A stretch of DNA of 64,000 nt. Origin: Sipunculus nudus. Lineage: Eukaryota > Annelida > Sipuncula > Golfingiida > Sipunculidae. Positions 17,977-59,469 of this stretch are shown one piece after another; position 1 is the first letter of the stretch, and every line of letters starts with the position of its first letter. The translations under genes were made by a program, and so were the position numbers. The notes under the pieces are model-generated. The model was not told where the DNA came from. It did not search any database and was given only the letters and a program-made list of their open reading frames with translations. Location of the stretch: contig CM049314.1 in assembly GCA_026874595.1 (NCBI GenBank), positions 35,569,229 through 35,633,228 on the forward strand, written 5' to 3'.

Positions 17977-18185
17977 AATGAAAATGGTACACACGGAAAA
18001 GTCGGCTCACTGCCGATGGGAATCGAACCCACGATCTTTCGATTTCTGGTCGGACGCCTTAACCACTTGGCTTCACCAGATCCCCCACCCCTCTGGGTAT
18101 TTTCACATTGACCTCACAGTCTCACCTACTACATGGGTCGGCACGGCGACTTTGCATGCACCAGGGAGAACTGATCGCCTTATAT
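17977..18185 (-). mobile_element. tRNA-Ser-like SINE element, copy 1
   Basis: On the minus strand a tRNA-like body carries an A-box (AAGCCAAGTGGTTAAGGCG), a CCAGAAATCG anticodon-loop-like segment (AGA anticodon position, as in tRNA-Ser) and a B-box (GTGGGTTCGATTCCCA). Upstream of the tRNA part is a ~57-bp block (18115-18171) that recurs at 59663-59720 in the second copy. The end CATCGGCAGTGAGCCGAC also recurs twice near 59.85 and 60.07 kb. A (TA)n tract lies on each side. The pairing of a conserved block before a tRNA-like unit is unlike an ordinary tRNA gene. Confidence 0.65.
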
Positions 18186-18909: not shown

Positions 18910-21145
18910 TCACAGTGTCCTTATGTTTGCACGGATAACCTGGAGCAGCCGCCTGACAAACAAAACGTAATTCGTTACGCGTTCTGTAACTGAGGTACTT
19001 GCGACTGCATCCAAGGGGAATGGGGAATGAAGCTCGCCAAACAGGATATCTGTCGTGAAACACTGCAAATAAACAAATAAACATATACTTTGTGGAAAAT
19101 ACCAGTGCGCCACCTTTAAAATATAAGAAAAAGTATGATTTGTCTTTATTCCTCACCGTTGATATGATTTCCTGATTTATAGTACAATAATGTAAGCCTT
19201 AAATAGCAGTGATTGTATCAGCTTTGCTGAAGCGTTTTGTGTTTATTACAGGTTTAAATTAAACTTTGAAATTAAATATGAAGATACATTACATATTTTT
19301 ATCTCTGTGCCGATAAATAATATACACCTCTTTTGTACATATCGAATTGCAGGTTAAATAAATATCGATATCCCAAGGTAAATGACAAGTACAATTTACC
19401 TTCAGACGTTCGTGATCAAGATCCATGTTTTGCAGTCTATGATCAATGTTATAATACATGTTGTAAAAGTCCTTATCAGGGTCATCATTGCTTTCTTCTG
19501 GATACCAGCAAATGTCAGACATGGACTGACTGTAGGTCTTCATTCTACTGAGGGTGTTTCGTGCTTTCTGGAAACGTAATTATCCAAAGTCATAACGATG
19601 AAATAATGAAAATTTATTTAATAATAAATGTAATAAAATTAAGAATCTTTGATTACTTTATATATTATCAAACAAAAACTATTGAAGGTTAGCACCCCGA
19701 ATAATAAAGGTATTTAGGGTTGTAACCATATTTAAACATGATTCCGACTGGTATTCCGTGTCTGCTACAATTATGACTTTTTGATCAAATATCTTAATTT
19801 ATTTTAAATGAGTTATAATCTAAATAAATCAAATCATGGCAGAAGATCTATATTCTATATTTAAAAGATGTAAAGCAGATACTACACTTTTAGAATATGT
19901 ACAAGTAAATGGTTCACAAGGAAGTTGAAAATATACTACTTATAATATACATGCTGGCGAGACTGTTTTGAGAGTTTAAATGCAGAGGTATAATTTATTT
20001 TGAATACAAATGAGAACTGACAGGATTTTTGCTAGTTTTTCTATCTTGCATATCAGAACATCAGTTCGCAAATAATAATTCCTTGATCTGTTTAGTATTT
20101 AAATCCAACAATATAATGCCAGCGAACTTTTCCCGAATTATCCTCTTATGCACGGTCTGTTGATAGAGGAAATGGCAAACTTCTGTCAATTAATGTGCAA
20201 GTTGCTGCTTCCGGGATAAAGGCTGTTCTACACGTTTCCCACAATATTCAGGGAACTTTAGGATTATATGCTCGCTGGTTTGAATGTATCAAGTAATACA
20301 AGATTTATCTTTACATCTTCAAAGGGCTGTAATTTTGACATTTAGACAGTTCCTTTAGGCAGCTTCTTCTGTGCAAATATAAACTCTTGCTTAAACGTAC
20401 ATGTATCAGTTATTAGACATGCTTCACTCAGAACATTTTTGTTACTATACCCTTAAAAGTAATGACATTACGATGATGTTAACTATACTCACTTGTAAGG
20501 TAAACGTGTCTTGGTCAATGATCACAGTTGAATTTGTGTTTATCTTGTCAGCAGTGCATGCATTAGTTCTCTCCAGAATATTAGAGTATTTATAGCACTA
20601 AGTGAAAATAAGAATATGACATATGTAATATATACATGAAGATAAAATTTAAGAAAAATTTTCAACCAAAACCATTGAAATGAGATTCAAGAATATTCAC
20701 AAGTAACCATTTTAATAATATTTGACTGAGTTTAACATTATTTTCTTTTATTGAAATATTCATCTGTTTTTCCGTTAAACTGACTTTCTGAATGTTTGTA
20801 TGTATAAATCTCAAGGTACTCTGATAAACTTTCGATCGTGAAACGCGTTTGAAACATAGGTGTGACTCTGTGCTTAACCGTTTGAGCTTGAATCACGGCT
20901 TTTAAGAATAGATAATACTCACGAAGTCCTGTAAAAGCCTTTCAATTTTATCTGTGAGGTCAAGGCAGAGTTAAGGATGTTCGGCATCCCGTCCTTGTAT
21001 TGCTGCTGCATTGTTCCAGTCAGTGAAGCAAACAGAAGCTATGGTTAATGTGACTGTAAAAGCAGAAATGATTGGTATTAGAATGTATGACCCATGGGAT
21101 TGTCCCTATCTGTCTCATTCTGTATCTCTTTCTCATTATATCTCC

Positions 21146-21219
<74 letters not shown>

Positions 21220-21768
21220 TACCGTGGAAGTGTAAAGTCATCCACTTTTCAAAACTTTCCAGCAAGTTCCAGTCGATTTCCCGAGTGCCTGATTCTCTTA
21301 GGCAAATAATCAATTGGCTTAACATTCGCGAATATCATGAAAAATAGTTTATTTACCTGACCGATTCAAATGCAAACAATTATAAAATAACACTCTAAAA
21401 ATATTCTTGAATTAAAAGTGTATTTGACAGCTTCATTAAAAGTAATAAATATAAATGAAAGTATTACTAAAAGACACTTCTACTCCTATTTAAGCATATC
21501 TTTATCATGCATTTCATTTTACCAAATATATGATTATGATTATTCTTTACCAACCATTTCAGTTCATTCATACAAACATATCAGTAACCTTCCAAAAACT
21601 CTTTATAAAAAGATATGAGCAAATGGTTTAGTCATATGACGGAGTTATATATTGTGAAAATGTATATATATATTTATATATATATTTCATATTATAAAGA
21701 TTAATGACACGAATATATGTATATAAAATGAAAAATATGAGCTTACCTCTAACGCTGGAAACGTTCAT
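18910..21768 (-). CDS. Five-exon gene for a small secreted four-helix (cytokine-like) protein; in-frame stop in exon 2
   Basis: Spliced model on the minus strand: exon 1 21768-21747 (22 nt), exon 2 21053-20923 (131 nt), exon 3 20597-20493 (105 nt), exon 4 19567-19400 (168 nt), exon 5 19062-18910 (153 nt with TGA). Every junction is GT-AG, with donors GTAAGC, GTGAGT, GTGAGT and GTAAAT and good pyrimidine tracts; phases are 1,0,0,0. Total 193 codons. N-terminus MNVSSVRVTLTIASVCFTDW looks like a signal peptide, with likely cleavage after AAA25. Predicted helices: A about 36-60 (DKIERLLQDF), B 87-110, C 127-142, D 165-192 (YVLFVRRLLQVIRANI). Cys 37, 52, 64, 106 and 143; one N-glycosylation site (NST). 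Length, exon sizes and phases match class-I helical cytokines. Codon 35 is TAA (20973-20971). A second acceptor inside exon 2 (at 20951) would skip it but lose the signal peptide. An alternative first exon ending at 21223 has the same phase. No sequence-level family match was recognised. Confidence covers a real exon set, less so the cytokine call. Confidence 0.55.
20123..20296 (+). CDS. Candidate terminal exon on the opposite strand (weak)
   Basis: An AG at 20121-20122 is followed by 57 open codons and a TAA. The peptide includes NGKLLSINVQVAASGIKAVL and GLYARWFECIK. The pyrimidine tract is poor. It lies in intron 3 of the minus-strand gene. May be chance. Confidence 0.18.
   Translation, partial: RTFPELSSYARSVDRGNGKLLSINVQVAASGIKAVLHVSHNIQGTLGLYARWFECIK
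21149..21219. repeat. (TA)n(TG)n microsatellite
   Basis: Long TA run followed by TG repeats, in intron 1 of the gene at 18910-21768. Confidence 0.95.
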
Positions 21769-25959: not shown

Positions 25960-27756
25960 TTACAATTGGAACAATATAGGACCATCATTGTTCTCATGCT
26001 CTGTTATCCAAAGTCGTCCATCAGTGTCACATGATATATCACAGGGGTCGGTGATCTCATCACATCCGGCGATTATGTGTCTGATGAAGGAACCATCGAT
26101 ATTAAACTCAGAAATGCTATCGTTTTCAAAATCGGCGACCAGAATTGTCCCAGTCGGAGAGACTGCGCAGTCTTCTATGTCTGAGTTAGTCTGAGTACCA
26201 AGCTGTCCTACCTTCCTCCGGTCTTCGTTCCACAGTTTTACACTCCGACCAAATGAAATAACGTATTTATCCCTGCTCCCTTCTGATGCTACGTTAATTC
26301 TAATGAGCTCATCAGTTTGAAGACTGTTTTTCCATATCATATTTCCTTCTTCATTATATTTCCTTACATCTTCCTTTCCATCTATTGCATCTGATATTAT
26401 CACATTCCCAGCAGAATAAAAAAGTACTGCACGGTATATCATAGTCCTTTATGGTCTCCGTCCTGTCTATAATTGTAACTTCAAAAACTCTGTTACGGAT
26501 TTCATCAGCACAAAGTATTCTGTTCTTGTGAGTTGAAACCCGTGTGATATATCGTGACGTTGGAAATTTTGTTGAACAACCTTCAATGGAATCAAAGAGT
26601 ACAAGTGATGTCTGGTCGGCAGAAACACAGACAGCCCGGCCATTATTCAGGACACCTATGCCACAAGAAGAATTAATTTGATGGTTCTTATACCTCTTGA
26701 TTAACCTTGCTTGTCTTTTCCCTGATTCCCATTTGTTACTGGGTTTTCTCCCAATGAAGGGCCCGATGCCTTAGCCGATTTTTCAGTTTCATCTGCAGGG
26801 CAGTCAACTGATGACAATACACCAACTTTCGGTTCTAAACCGTGAACAAATTTCGCAGTCACTCATATCCATACTCTGAGCCATGGACTTGTATAATTCA
26901 TCTTCTTTTTCAACAACCCTCTTTAATGTGTTAACCCCATGGTCCACTTCATTCGAGCAAGTTTCCCTTAACTCCCGTAGCAACATTTGCCCCTGTGCAT
27001 CAATAGATGCTTTCATATTCTGTACCGTTTGGTCAATATCTTTTTTTTATTTTCTCAAAGAATCTTTGTTGAATCATGTATACCTGAAGGGTTTCTTTTC
27101 TCTCTAAAAGTTTCTTTTTCAAGATATCCTGGCTTTTAACATAGGAAGATTTTATATCAGCGGCCACCTTTGCAATGTCATTTAGGGAACCTTGGTGGCT
27201 ATCGTGATTAGAACTCAGTAAACAATCCACACACAAAAGTAAATTACACTTGTGACAAAAGCGTACATACTTGCTGTGATGTTTTGTACACATGTTTGAC
27301 TTAAGTTCTTCCTCAATTTTTATGTCGACCTTTTCGTGAAAATGGAACCCAGGAAAGCTGTCGTGTTTTTCAACACAATCGTCACATAATTTTCGGTCAC
27401 AGGTTAAACATGTTACTGCAGCACGGAGAAATTTCCCCTTCGTGCAACAGCTTATGCATAAATGCATCTTGCCGAGGGATCGAACCAATTTGCTGGTATG
27501 AACTGCTGACACATTCAATGGGAGGTTAGCAACCCCTTCCGGGTAGTCGTGTGTCCTCACGGCATGTTGGACAGGACACAGAATTCTGATTTCCTGGAAT
27601 GCCATCGGCCATGTTTTCAAGGCAAGGGGTACAAAATGTATGTAAGCAACGTAGTGTTCGTGGTTGACGGGTTGCAAGAGGCTCCATGCATATCTGACAC
27701 AATAACACCGCGTCTAATTCATTCAGTGAAGACGGTTTTGGCATAGAAGAGGCCAT
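25960..27756 (-). pseudogene. TRIM protein with C-terminal NHL-like propeller, broken by five single-base frame changes
   Basis: From the ATG at 27756: RING (Cys20, Cys23, Cys37, His39, Cys42, Cys45…CPTC), B-box1-like (CISC…CLTC…CDDC), B-box2 (CTKH…CHKC…CVDC…H), coiled coil, then a C-terminal part rich in NHL/WD-like turns (GTILVADFENDSISEFN, DPCDISCDTDGRLWITEHE) ending at 25960. The frame is lost at about 27533 (an extra G in a G4 run), 27045 (extra A in A8), 26850 (extra T in TTT), 26762 (net one base short) and 26418 (extra T in T6). Between the breaks the protein remains well conserved, which suits either very recent pseudogenisation or homopolymer errors in the assembly. A splice acceptor (TTTTTTTCAG) lies 8 bases before the ATG, as at the other TRIM loci. 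If intact it would be a cytoplasmic E3-ligase-like protein of about 590 aa. Confidence 0.8.
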
Positions 27757-29734: not shown

Positions 29735-32700
29735 AACATTATCTGCAGTTGTTTTAATACCAAAATTTGTTTTTGGTGCAGTTTTCTTACCAATGAAGTA
29801 AAGATGCTGCTACTCAAGGCAGGAGTCACACACAATGGAACCTCTTGCTGTCTTTGATGTTTCAGCATCCCCTTCACAGACCTGGCATATATACAGTAGA
29901 GACATCTGCTTCCTCCCCTGGTAGACATGTTGGACATCAGCCCAGCCATCATCATCAAAGTATTTGTGAATCAGAATTAAGCTGACGTTTTCTTCCAGGC
30001 ATGCAGAAAGAATCAAACGTGGGTTTTGCTCAACATATTTTTCAGTTAATACTGATCCCTTCTTGGCAAGAATAGTGGAATCTTGCTATGTAAACCAGGC
30101 CAATAACTGGTGATCAAATTCTTCAGTTACAAGTTGGTTCGCACATTCTGCGAGGTGTGGTGGGTTACTTTGTTCTGTGGAGGACTGTATGCCTGGGATG
30201 GTATCTGATATACCGCTGCCAGATGGACTTCAAGTAGGGGGATGCTTGAATCTGTGGAGATTTTGTGGTTGACTGGGTTCCGAGATGGGTACCTCGAAGA
30301 TTTTGTTTAGGAATGTAGTGGCTGATGGGATATTTGAACTGACATCTGGTGTTTTTGTCAGGACGTTCAAGCGTCGGATGGTTAGTAGGGTGCATGAGCT
30401 TGTATCTGAGATACCACTGGTAATTACTTGATCATTATCACATCGTTTCCTGCTTGCCAGATATATGCTAATTTCTGCAATAATTCCAGTTTGTGGTTGA
30501 CGTCACACATTCCTTCACTTGCAGCTAGGTGTTGCTAGATTTTATGTGACTGTTGATTCTTCGCGAAACTTCTCCACCTCTGAAGCACTAGTCGTGAAGG
30601 AGCTAGCTGAACTGATATTGCAGAAACCTGGCATGAGGTAGGATAAGTCCTTGGCTGTAATACTCCTCTGTATATCTCACATGACAAAGGTCAGGGTAAT
30701 ACAGTTCCATATCAACAGCCGACATAACAGCAAAGATGTGATGACATGGCACGTTATGACACTTGATGAAAGAACATGTACATTGTTACAGGTGCCCTCT
30801 TTATTGTGTGCAGCGGTGTTGCATGTGTTTCTTGAGGGGTGCTCCATGCGTTGCTGACATTCGGTTCGTGTGCCAAGCGTAGCTCTTGTTGTAGCGGCCT
30901 CGCCTCGCCGGATGTTGCAGGTTCGGTTTAATCCGCATTGGTTGAACCCTGTCGCGTAGATACCCAGCGTTCTTTGTTCTTGTATGTTCTTCGAGCGTGT
31001 TTATTATATTAGGTTCTTTAGATTGTTTGAGAAATGGAAAATTCTCGGCTTGAGGTGAAAAGTTATATAAAGAGGCCGTGTTTTAAAGACGGGAGAGAGT
31101 TGAGAGAATATTCCAGCACACACAGTTTGTGGGACCTATTCGGATAAGTGCGGCAATTATAGATTTTCTTCAGATTTTATTCTGGATTTGTAACGGATCT
31201 TTTATAGTCTATAGAGCTTTACATTGGACTGTTATTCTCTGAGAAGATTTGTGTGAACTGTTCATCTGAATTTTAAGCGTTAAAGGACTAATCGCTGTGA
31301 CAGTGGTGTTATCCAAGTACTGTGCACTTTGTTTATTGGGCTGTGTGATTATATTGCTGTTATACTGTTTTTGTACTGTGTAATTGTATTGATTTATTGT
31401 ATTGTAATGTTAGGGTTATTTTAAGAATAAATTATAGTTATTTGTTAACAAAAAAAAAACACTGACACTAGACATTTCACGCTGCCTGGTGTTACAGAAT
31501 CTGATTTTTTTTTATCTCCATGACAAAGCTAATTTTCGTCACGCATACGTGATCTGTTGATATTATGTTCCGTAAAAACATGAATCTTGGGTAATGCATA
31601 GCGTACCTTGTGCTGTGGCAGCTTTGAAGGCACCACTTCAATCAGGTGAACTTTGGAGGCCAGCTTCATCTGCTCTGTGATGATTGTGAATGTGTGGGGT
31701 AACACGTTGGTGGAACTGGTGCTGAACACTTCCCTCATTGAATTGTACACTTGGTACTTTCTGAAACATCACAAAGGCTCGATGATCTCGTTCTGTCTGC
31801 AGGGTTGCCAGCACTTGAAAGAATGTTGCTAAGAAATCCTTGAGACACATTTCAAGGGTTGTGACTGACTTTAATTTCTGGAAGAAGTTCTCTAGTTTGT
31901 TGTTTGTGCGAACACACAGGTTCATTTCTCGTTGCTTGAAGCGTTCAACCCATTCCTTCTTTATAAGCTTCAATTTTTCTGAAAGTACCTAAGAACACTG
32001 GCAATTCCGGTGTTATGAAGCTGCTGTACACTGTTGTTGTAGGGCTCCTCACAGTTTGCGAAAGTAATCTTTTTCATTATATCTAAGACTGTTGCTTTCT
32101 GTTCACCACTGATCCCTATTTTCTCAGTTGTTATTTCTCGCTAGAATGTATGTAGCACATGAACTAGACTTTTGTGCATATCTGCTTGTGATATCTCTCT
32201 TCAGTCATGTACTTGTCAGTAATAATGACTATAACATCAGTCCATCTGGGCTTGCTACGTTTGGACAACTGAACCATCTTCTTCAGCAAGGGAGCCTGTT
32301 CATTAATGACTAAGAAAGCGCAAGCAACCTGATTCCCTCCATTACCATCTATCATCAGTATCTCAAAATGAGAGAAACCAAGGATATTGGTTTTGTGCGT
32401 GGAATCAATCAGAATTACTTCTGGATATTGAAGAAAAAGTCCTTGCAGTATGAACTCTTCATTGATGATAAATTCAGTTTCAAGTCCAGATATGCCTGAC
32501 GGTTTAGATTTGATCTGCTGTAGTTTTGGAGTGGATGACGTGATAGTTTGCTTATAAAAAGCTCCGATATTATGAATATCTTTAAACAAGATGTGTTTTC
32601 CAGGTTTCTCTCGAAAATGTTGCCTTACTATCTTTCTGTTTGCCCTGACGTAAAGCATCTCTGTTACCTCGGACCAGTGTCAGTGTCATTTAGCCTTCTC

Positions 32701-42770: not shown

Positions 42771-43802
42771 CTACCAATTTTTTAAATTTAAATCTTTAAC
42801 CAGAGTAATTTCAGGAGGTAAGTTTATTTTATTAATCTTGCTCTCGGCAACTATCACTTGTTCTTCCTTCGTCTGCACAATGTCCAGATACTGTATGATC
42901 TCACAGTCACTTTTTTTGGCCACTTCTGACAATGATTGGTATATTACTTGTTCCTTCTCGAGCACATTTGTGATGAAGCTTACTCCTTCCTCTGACACTT
43001 TTAAATAATTTTCTTCCAGTTCCTGTAGTAAATTTTCTCTTTTCCTATCGACGGACGATTTCACATTTTCTGCATGCTCTTCAACATCGTGTTTCACATT
43101 TGTCAGGTGTTTTTGACGGTTCAAATGATCTTGAAGTGTTGTATTTGTCTGATAAATTTTCGTCAACATGTCTACCTTCATTTTAGACATTTCTGATCTG
43201 ACCGATCTAGCCTTTTCTGTAATACTTACAAGATGCTGTTTGTGTGCATCATGTTCAGCACTTAGCAAGCAATCCACACATAATAACACATTACATACGG
43301 AACAATACAGCCGAAAGTCACTCTTGTGTTTTGTACACTTGTCTGAACTTTGACCACGGTTAGTTTTGCTTATTGGTGATTTTTTATGTGCTTGAAAGCC
43401 AGGAATTTTGTCGTGTCGTCCTCTGCAGATTTCACACAAGCGACGATCACATTCGAGACAGTTCACACTTGCATCAGTAAAGTCTCCCTTTTTCCAGCAT
43501 GCACTACATGAGTCTAATTTTGCAATGGATCGAACCATGTCGCTTGTCTGTTCTATCGTAAAATTCAATGGCAGAGTTGAAACCATCCTTCGGGGTACGT
43601 CTGTGTTTCTCTTGCAGGTGGGACAGGACAGAGTTTTCCTACCATCGTTACACCCTGTGACCATATCCTCAAGACACGGAGTGCAGAATGTGTCGAAACA
43701 CTGAAGCGTTCTAGGACTTCTACCCAACAATGGTTTCATGCATATATGGCAACTGAAGACTTTTTCTACTTCTTTCACAATAGTTGACATCGAAGACGCC
43801 AT
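42771..43802 (-). CDS. TRIM protein (RING, two B-boxes, coiled coil), C-terminally truncated copy 2
   Basis: Open frame of 343 codons from the ATG at 43802; an acceptor (TTTCGCTAG) lies 8 bases upstream, so a 5'UTR intron is likely. RING ligands: Cys18, Cys21, Cys35, Asp37, Cys40, Cys43, Cys60 and Cys63; the usual His is Asp37 (GAC for CAC). B-box1-like Cys99/102/115/118/123/126/His130; B-box2 CTKHKSDFRLYCSVCNVLLC about 157-176; coiled coil about 195-320. The frame ends at LVKDLNLKNW because of two extra A and one missing G near 42780. The old frame beyond would in any case stop at TGA (CGA TGA) where copy 1 has TGG, so the membrane segment seen in copy 1 is lost. It would be a soluble RING protein; expression is unknown. 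Confidence 0.85.
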   Translation of the reverse strand: MASSMSTIVKEVEKVFSCHICMKPLLGRSPRTLQCFDTFCTPCLEDMVTGCNDGRKTLSCPTCKRNTDVPRRMVSTLPLNFTIEQTSDMVRSIAKLDSCSACWKKGDFTDASVNCLECDRRLCEICRGRHDKIPGFQAHKKSPISKTNRGQSSDKCTKHKSDFRLYCSVCNVLLCVDCLLSAEHDAHKQHLVSITEKARSVRSEMSKMKVDMLTKIYQTNTTLQDHLNRQKHLTNVKHDVEEHAENVKSSVDRKRENLLQELEENYLKVSEEGVSFITNVLEKEQVIYQSLSEVAKKSDCEIIQYLDIVQTKEEQVIVAESKINKINLPPEITLVKDLNLKNW

Positions 43803-43982
43803 TTGTATACCTAGCGAAAGGAATATTCAGTATTTAAGTGTAAACGAAATGTATGTATATTTTCATATTAAAATGGAGTTTCCCAGGTGGCTTTATTCAA
43901 GCTGAATTCCATATATTTAACGTGTTTTGTCAGGTCCTTCAGTGCACGCAACACATTATGTGCCCGTAAAACACATACACAC

Positions 43983-56920: not shown

Positions 56921-59469
56921 GATAGAACGTAGTCAATATATAATTGTCGTTTTTTACATGGTATATCATTTTTAACTATCATAAGCATAAAATCTAAAAT
57001 TCTACAGGAAGTATGCGGCATCTTCTTGTGTTTCCCTACGTCGACGAACTTGATTCGACTTGGGATTACCAAATAATGATTTCCACTCTTGTTGCTGAGG
57101 CGAGTGTTCAGGTAAAATAGTATCATATTTTGATGCGTTTATTTCAAATGAATTATTGTTTGTTAATCATTTTTACTCAAAATGTATTTACCAAATATAA
57201 AAAAGCAACAAAAAATACGCGCTTCAGATAATAAATGTCATGTTAATTATTATCTTACTGCTTATTATGTTTAAGGTGATTGCAGCTAATATGTCAAAAA
57301 GCTTTTCGATGAAGGGAAATCAACCAGTCCGCTTACATCTGAACATGAATGATTTCTATCTGACTACGTATTTCGAAAGAGAAAAAAAAGCAGTTCTGAT
57401 TTTGTCGGATGAGCCCATTATAGTTCAAGGTTACCTGCAGAGTCAGGGTTCTGCAGGAGGATACACTTCCATTCCTTTGCACTGGGGAAGCAAACGATTT
57501 ATAGTTCCTGCTTATATTGATTTTGATTCCACATACAATTCTGATATCATATTTGCAGCCTTAAGTGATAACACACGCGTGAAAGTCTCATACACTAACG
57601 GGTCATCATCCATTATCATTTTACCAGCTTTCGGGACATACTCTGTTAAGTCTAAATCTGATCTCACTGGAACTTATGTAGCGGCTAACTCTTCAATTGC
57701 TCTATATTCTGGACATGTGTGTGCAAACGTTCCAGTAATCACCAAGTTCTGCGATCGTTTGATAGAAGGAATTCCTCCTTTGTCGTATCAAGGCAAGAAT
57801 TACATCATTCCATCAGTAGGTGGCAGGAGTAAAAAGGCTGGATACGTTGTCCGTGTCTTGTCCGTAGCGCCACAAGAAAGTGTTCATACCGGTATGCACA
57901 AAGAAACCAGTTTCCATTATAATATACCGCGAGCTTTCAATTGTACGGAAGGTTGTTTTGTCTATTTGTATAACAAAGGAGGTAAAGCAGATCAATCAAA
58001 GTCGGATCCGTTTATGATGCGTGTGGTTCCTGTCACCCAATACGCAAATCCGTTGATATGGATCACACCTATGCGTTCAAATAATTCTTTTGGAGATCGA
58101 TTTCAGCATTATGTAAGCATCATTGTACCAACTGTGGAAACATTTGGTGTTCATTTAGATAGACTGATGGTTAATCAGTCCCAATGGTCTGTGGTTGAAC
58201 ATTCCATTTTCAGTGTCATTACCCTCTCGATAAAGAATGGGCTGCATACGATTCACCATGATAAATCACATGTCAAAATGGCTGCATATGCATATGGGCA
58301 TGGACAAAAATTGAGGGTTGGATATGGCTTTCCCGCTGGTGCTATGGGTCAGTACACATATTATAAAACTATTGACATGGATTATTAACTAAAAAAACTT
58401 CGTCCGTTTATTTATAATATAAAAAAAATATTCAGTATTGATTTTACAACATATGAAGTCATTTAGCCGTTGATGTGTAATGTTATTTACTTTGGATTTA
58501 AATACATATATGCAAAAGAAAAACTTCCAAAATATTCTATATTTTGAAATATGTTGGTACAAAATAGAAATCACATTATATAGTTGAATTAAGATAAACA
58601 GATTTACGACGAAAATGAGAGACAATGGTTGTCGAATACTTGTTACCTCTGCATATTTTTTTCTTGACAAAGAATGTTTCGTATGATTTCATGGGACACA
58701 GGCGAGGGGGTCAGTTCGGATGGTTGGGGTGTAAATGATGAAAAACGAAGGAAGTCAGGTATGAATTTAATTGTTTCTCATGTTTCATTACAGCTCGATT
58801 GAATGTTAATTTTATAATAGGTATATTGGATTATCTAGTTCTCATTAGTAAATTCAAACATTCAACATGATTGTGAACATATATATGGCGTTTAAATATA
58901 AAAATTACCTTTTAAAGTCATACATATCGTATATACAAGAAATGGTGTTTTAACCAAATGATCTGACACATGAAACAATTCTCTCATCTTATTTAGATTT
59001 ATCTCAGACAGTGGCCTTGTACAAAGCCGTTCTATCGGGCACGGCCGTCACTGCTGGAATCCTCCTGTTAGTACTCATCGCAACCTGGATCATGTGTTTT
59101 ATAAAGTTTCGGAAAGCCGGATTATTAAGGTAAAACATAAACGAAGTCGTAAAATTAGTTCATGTTTATTTTATTTGCTAATTCGCTACATGAACCGTGA
59201 GAATATTTGAAAGCTTTATAATTTAATGCTCCCGATCGAAGAGCGGTTCCTGTTTAAATATTTTATTTAAAAAAATAAAGAATAAGGGCAATACGATAGA
59301 CTAATGACTCATCTCCGAATTCAGAAAGCGTGACCGACAAGGGGGTTCCTCTCCTCCAAGACCGCCCATGATTCCCCTTGAAAATGTGGAGCCTGGAGAT
59401 GAAAGAGTTTACTACACGCACTTGTCCGGAGCTGATCATTCAAAACCGCACGTCTATCAGTCGATCTGA
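56246..59469 (+). CDS. IgGFc-binding-domain membrane protein with ITIM-type cytoplasmic tail (six exons)
   Basis: Splice model: 56246-56300, 57008-57111, 57276-58347, 58702-58758, 58997-59129, 59325-59469; 1566 nt, 521 codons before the stop, every junction GT-AG and in phase (1,0,1,1,2). Exon 1 encodes a signal peptide (MARTLYLVCCIFLVMEATG). Exons 2-3 encode the IgGFc-binding N-terminal domain seen in FCGBP-like proteins (SGHVCANVPVITKFCDRL, ending GYGFPAGAM), with four Cys in the core and several N-glycosylation sequons. Exon 4 is a short linker. Exon 5 encodes a transmembrane helix at about 446-465 (AVTAGILLLVLIATWIMCFI) with a basic stop (KFRK). Exon 6 is a ~50-residue tail with SSPPRPPMIP, VYYTHL (fits the ITIM consensus) and VYQSI at the end. 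FCGBP relatives are usually secreted with VWD repeats; none is seen here. Intron 3 retention would give a soluble 423-aa form ending at 58388. The apparent ATG at 57240 lies in intron 2. Confidence 0.8.
56843..56918. repeat. (TA)n microsatellite in intron 1
   Basis: TA run with one TAC interruption. Confidence 0.96.

Follow-up and report, generated by a model that had tools for sequence, protein, structure and literature searches.

The window analysed here is a stretch of 64,000 nucleotides (C9:35569229-35633228) from a searched genome of 1.43 Gb on 153 contigs. Its minus strand carries a gene, W, for which the initial annotation had proposed five exons of 22, 131, 105, 168 and 153 nt, joined across GT-AG introns with the phases 1, 0, 0 and 0. 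This structure was borne out on the sequence (Table 1), and the joined frame has the five cysteines described downstream of the leader. The AATAAA predicted 195 bases beyond the stop codon was located as well. Over about 3.4 kb upstream of exon 2, no ATG other than that of MNVSSVR opens a short exon with a phase-1 donor of the GTRAG type. A tRNA-like stretch was seen just past the gene, which by eye resembles the head of a SINE. A run of ARAGORN over the window yielded no tRNA.

The claim that one open frame runs through all exons had to be given up, as an in-frame TAA in exon 2 had been overlooked. Owing to this stop, W as modelled in the assembly yields just a short leader peptide. Exons 3 to 5 contain no stop. 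With a single stop in exon 2 and the downstream exons still open, the likeliest reading of W is a young pseudogene or null allele, with an assembly error as a less likely alternative.

Table 1. Features of the gene W and of its surroundings. Positions refer to the window unless they are preceded by C9.
Feature	Position	Strand	Remarks
Exon 1	21768-21747	-	22 nt; MNVSSVR plus 1 nt; phase-1 donor GTAAGC
Exon 2	21053-20923	-	131 nt; encodes leader and first part of helix A; TAA inside; alignable to exon 2 in C and D
In-frame TAA	20973-20971	-	Codon 35 of the joined frame, exon 2, between leader and helix A
Hypothetical shorter exon 2	20951-20923	-	Inner pyrimidine-rich CAG acceptor, phase 1; would bypass stop and leader; from sequence alone
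Exon 3	20597-20493	-	105 nt; last part of helix A, including two Cys, then A-B loop; phase-0 splice sites
Exon 4	19567-19400	-	168 nt; would encode helix B, a short loop and helix C
Exon 5	19062-18910	-	153 nt including TGA; encodes C-D loop, then helix D
AATAAA	18715-18710	-	Candidate polyadenylation signal
tRNA-like stretch	about 18040-18110	-	
NHL-repeat ORF	25963-26448	-	TRIM-like; near W
B-box zinc-finger ORF	27036-27713	-	TRIM-like; near W
B-box zinc-finger ORF	42774-43826	-	TRIM-like; near W
Transposase-like ORF	32167-32679	-	ZSWIM1-3 RNaseH-like and MULE domains
ORF matching IgGFc_binding	57201-58385	+	E 7.7e-36
Paralogue G	C9:35370100-35372500	-	
Reverse-transcriptase-like frame	C9:35392927-35394303	-	459 residues; by eye
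B-box-like ORF	C9:35404824-35406218	+	Near the paralogue cluster; by eye
Paralogue J	C9:33976248-33976382	+	

The genome was searched with the part of W that follows the stop, and the resulting match lists are lower bounds. The off-locus matches listed had E values of 1.4e-4, 2.7e-4, 5.0e-4, 0.005, 0.008, 0.010 and 0.029, followed by weaker ones. Matches in order and on the same strand were found on C9 at 35.26-35.37 Mb and on C1 at 61.337 Mb. When 180 kb of C9 were examined, seven copies (A to G) were seen 0.2-0.3 Mb from W, and 18 kb of C1 contained one copy, H, at 61.337 Mb. A further relative, I, gave two weak matches in the correct order on C1 at 104.80 Mb in the genome search, and its exons 4 and 5 reached E values of 3.6e-9 and 3.2e-7 when a six-member profile was run over 5.5 kb. 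The copy J is an isolated exon 5 at locus L039, 1.6 Mb from W (E 1.2e-10 in a 4 kb search); it lies on the opposite strand, has no AG acceptor and by eye is most similar to paralogue D. Together with W the family comprises at least 11 loci in one genome, with H and I on a second chromosome.

For a control, the queries of exons 3 to 5 were reversed. Across the window and 262 kb of fetched DNA the true queries gave 19 matches at E<=0.05, three of which are W's own exons, whereas the reversed queries gave 2 in the same DNA. A chance chain of splice sites is ruled out by this control and by the paralogues with the same exon order, and the presence of at least ten further family loci in the genome likewise argues that W is not a chance pattern. 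A transposable element was also rejected, on the ground that copies of different lineages match in their exons and that identity is higher in exons than in introns (0.897 versus 0.778 for E/F and 0.650 versus 0.467 for C/D). The locus belongs to a gene family that is real and, it seems, undescribed.

In the paralogues C, D, E and F, exons 2 to 5 are open and are joined by phase-0 splice sites. Candidates for a phase-1 exon 1 were found in these four, in W and in the frameshifted G, and with them, in the four and in W, the arrangement of a tiny first exon, junction phases 1, 0, 0 and 0 and helix D in the last exon. The candidate is the only one in W; in C it was chosen from five by its G base and its proximity and is less certain. 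In H, exons 2 to 5 are open and no convincing candidate for exon 1 was seen. The profile of exon 2 gave no match to A, B or H, and exon 2 of H was later found as the single match when 5 kb were scanned in a splice-aware manner. The same scan gave 10 matches in 524 kb (both strands), at least five of which are family exons. In the paralogue G, another recently broken copy, exon 4 and the leader-encoding exon 2 are preserved, exon 3 carries a frameshift of one base, and exon 5 is shortened. Exon 4 of B is interrupted by a stop, and its exon 3 is disrupted. Exon 5 alone was found in A and J, and just exons 4 and 5 in I, where exons 2 and 3 were not found in 3 kb upstream. Five of the 11 loci (C, D, E, F and H) thus have open exons 2 to 5, one (I) is partly found and five (W, A, B, G and J) are interrupted or fragments.

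The substitutions between E and F gave a dN/dS of 0.40 overall and of about 0.12 in exon 5. In exons 2, 3 and 4 dN about equals dS with few changes, and the constraint is clear in exon 5 only. Neutral decay was simulated for exons 3 to 5 of C, D, E and F with uniform substitutions and 400 runs each. At 0.3 substitutions per site 0.7-1.8% of the runs were without a stop, and at 0.1 the value was 14-22%. Since a stop-free outcome is rare in the simulated decay at 0.3 substitutions per site and exons 3 to 5 of W are free of stops, W was probably under constraint until recently. In a protein tree of seven rows W forms a separate, weakly placed lineage with a long end branch of 0.95, which was taken as further evidence of this constraint.

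The encoded proteins were compared in two alignments with six (A1) and seven (A2) rows. The common order of the segments is helix A, a long loop, B, a short loop, C, a long loop and D. One cysteine lies at the start of helix A, two are encoded in exon 3 and separated by 12 residues, one follows the proposed helix B and one is part of the Cys-Phe that opens exon 5. Each of these five cysteines is conserved in all rows that extend over it, and some rows have further ones. An Arg-x-x-x-Tyr motif in helix D is invariant in both alignments. All seven rows carry one or more N-glycosylation motifs, in some cases within the leader. The presumed secretion leader in exon 2 is hydrophobic in C, D, E, F, G and H, as judged by hydropathy only. 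The signal-peptide-like start that had been ascribed to W is indeed hydrophobic, but by eye only weakly so.

The four amphipathic helices proposed for W were recovered in part. In a hydrophobic-moment scan, run without a control, segments at A, B, C and D were seen in most of six rows; in W the peaks were high at A and D, with 0.70 and 0.74, but lower at B, with 0.43, and at C, with 0.46. AlphaFold was used in single-sequence mode on exons 4 and 5 of W, each alone. For exon 5 a single helix was predicted at residues 17-49, the block means for the final 20 residues being 95 and 90, and for exon 4 a single helix at residues 32-55, corresponding to C, with block means of 70-78. Helix B was absent from the exon 4 model. 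The segment order and the loop lengths fit a class I bundle, with models that cover two single exons only and predict D well, C moderately and B not at all. A Foldseek search with the exon 5 model gave no match.

The statement that W matches no known cytokine sequence was confirmed with Pfam, with PDB sequences and with the IL6 profile. The Pfam scan of six members at E<=10 returned four unrelated families, none above its own cut-off, and no class I or class II family profile and no Unpaired profile was among these matches. A match to EpoR_lig-bind (E 0.99) and those to three other Pfam families (best E 0.11) were taken as chance. The IL6/G-CSF/MGF profile PF00489 gave nothing above its cut-off over the genome, and the PDB sequences gave chance-level matches only, among them SNF2, S17E and neurolysin. 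Divergent class I cytokines are known to evade sequence-profile searches, and the absence of a profile match is therefore still compatible with a four-helix fold. As to the pathway, STAT_bind had three matches in the genome at E<=0.01: C12 carries two of them and C5 the third, which is near the cut-off. The IL6Ra-bind profile gave nothing above its cut-off over the genome; a match on C16 (E 1) was rejected, as the 3.2 kb locus contains neither a receptor-like frame nor a WSxWS motif. Receptor genes that are split by introns can evade such a profile search.

The genes of IL-6 and G-CSF have a tiny first exon and junction phases 1, 0, 0 and 0, and genes of the IL-2/IL-4 type are divided by phase-0 introns into leader and helix A, A-B loop, helices B-C and helix D. 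The family resembles IL-6 and G-CSF/CSF3 in its five exons, with leader and helix A early and helix D in the last exon, and in the long A-B and C-D loops. It shares the exon split and the phase-0 introns with the short-chain class I cytokines (IL-2, IL-4 and IL-21 type), from which it is set apart by an additional tiny first exon, followed by a phase-1 intron, and by the lack of a sequence match. Unlike IL-6 and G-CSF/CSF3, to which it has no sequence similarity, the family shows its own five-cysteine pattern and occurs in an animal group where surveys report no such cytokine (PMC13203501, PMC8226699). Gene structure is described as a guide to helical cytokines where sequence fails (PMC2654155). 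The initial annotation had treated five exons, a tiny first exon and the phases 1, 0, 0 and 0 as typical of class I. The exon number agrees with the five exons and four introns given for G-CSF genes (PMC6389648), whereas the phase pattern is also stated for the class II genes IFNL2/3 (PMC2654155).

We propose, with a probability of roughly 0.55, that W is a recently disabled or polymorphic copy in a multi-gene family of small secreted proteins that are helical-cytokine-like and may act on receptors of the gp130/Domeless type. The mature chain would fold as helices A to D, the A-B and C-D loops being long and the B-C loop short, which is the class I layout. The protein would be an extracellular ligand that joins gp130/Domeless-type receptors and thereby would activate JAK/STAT. 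This proposed role is likened to that of Unpaired, named as the insect JAK/STAT ligands of the gp130-like receptor Domeless (PMC13203501); no Unpaired was among the Pfam matches of six members. Duplication, loss and fast sequence change would fit an immune signal, and W would have lost its full-length product through one stop. Because open-frame paralogues share the exon order, phases, leader, cysteines and the order of helices and loops, the case for a cytokine-like protein is stronger than a single locus would allow. The four-helix cytokine suggested for W alone is upheld to this extent, but W is interrupted, the AlphaFold models show helices D and C only and no profile links the family to IL-6 or G-CSF. 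In our analysis the term helical cytokine-like appears firmer than class I, since IFNL2/3 also have a tiny phase-1 first exon followed by phase-0 introns.

More tentatively, and taking the animal as a mollusc, the family may represent the first class I helical cytokines in molluscs. The gene content and the size of the genome would fit the bivalve supposed in the initial annotation. They would be true homologues of the IL-6/G-CSF type that kept exon 1 and the phases and lost the similarity, and would be the missing ligands of gp130/Domeless-type receptors. One survey reports IL6R, JAK and STAT in molluscs, the absence of IL6 from invertebrates and Upd in insects (PMC13203501); another located no invertebrate member of the IL6 superfamily and mentions IL6-like proteins in fly and sea star (PMC8226699). 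No described molluscan class I cytokine was among the papers listed in the literature searches, which covered few subscription journals and preprints.

It is rather unlikely, though it deserves attention, that the family is made up not of cytokines but of other secreted helical proteins with cysteines, such as pheromone-like, antimicrobial or carrier proteins, whose layout and phases are convergent and which have no class I receptor. The lack of any profile tying the family to a cytokine, the AlphaFold support for helix D and less surely C alone and the IL6Ra-bind search that found no receptor in the genome all fit such proteins. They would have to account for a tiny phase-1 exon, three phase-0 introns, the split into signal peptide with A, loop, B-C and D and two long loops, a combination that is a helical-cytokine pattern and that was found in no other family and is not known from one.

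A cytokine-like family closer to class II (the IL-10/interferon type) than to class I seems improbable. IFNL2/3 are described with a four-residue first coding exon and a phase-1 intron followed by phase 0, and IL-10 genes with phase-0 introns only (PMC2654155). An interferon-like protein of the Pacific oyster, CgIFNLP, is termed class II-like (PMC9756803); this helical-cytokine-like bivalve protein was compared by description only. Against this, IFNL2/3 with that first exon have six coding exons, one more than the five found here, as well as a class II fold and no sequence match, and no class II Pfam family was matched by the six members. The class I genes IL3 and IL21 have phase-0 introns and also the IL10-type structure (PMC2654155), so that gene structure does not separate class I from class II.

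That W itself is functional through the inner exon 2 acceptor, as a leaderless intracellular or unconventionally released form, is highly improbable: a pyrimidine-rich CAG of the right phase does lie just after the stop, but such a form would lose the sole leader and the first cysteine, and about 3.5 kb scanned upstream hold no ATG exon with a phase-1 donor besides MNVSSVR.

In conclusion, a recently disabled or polymorphic copy in a multi-gene family of helical-cytokine-like proteins is the reading that we prefer for W. This multi-copy secreted family provides concrete candidates for the missing IL6-type ligand, and alignment A2 can be used for exon-by-exon searches. If the reading is true, the question of the missing ligand would become a direct experiment, and gene structure would find cytokines where sequence fails. 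If the members are true homologues, class I cytokines would predate the split between protostomes and deuterostomes.
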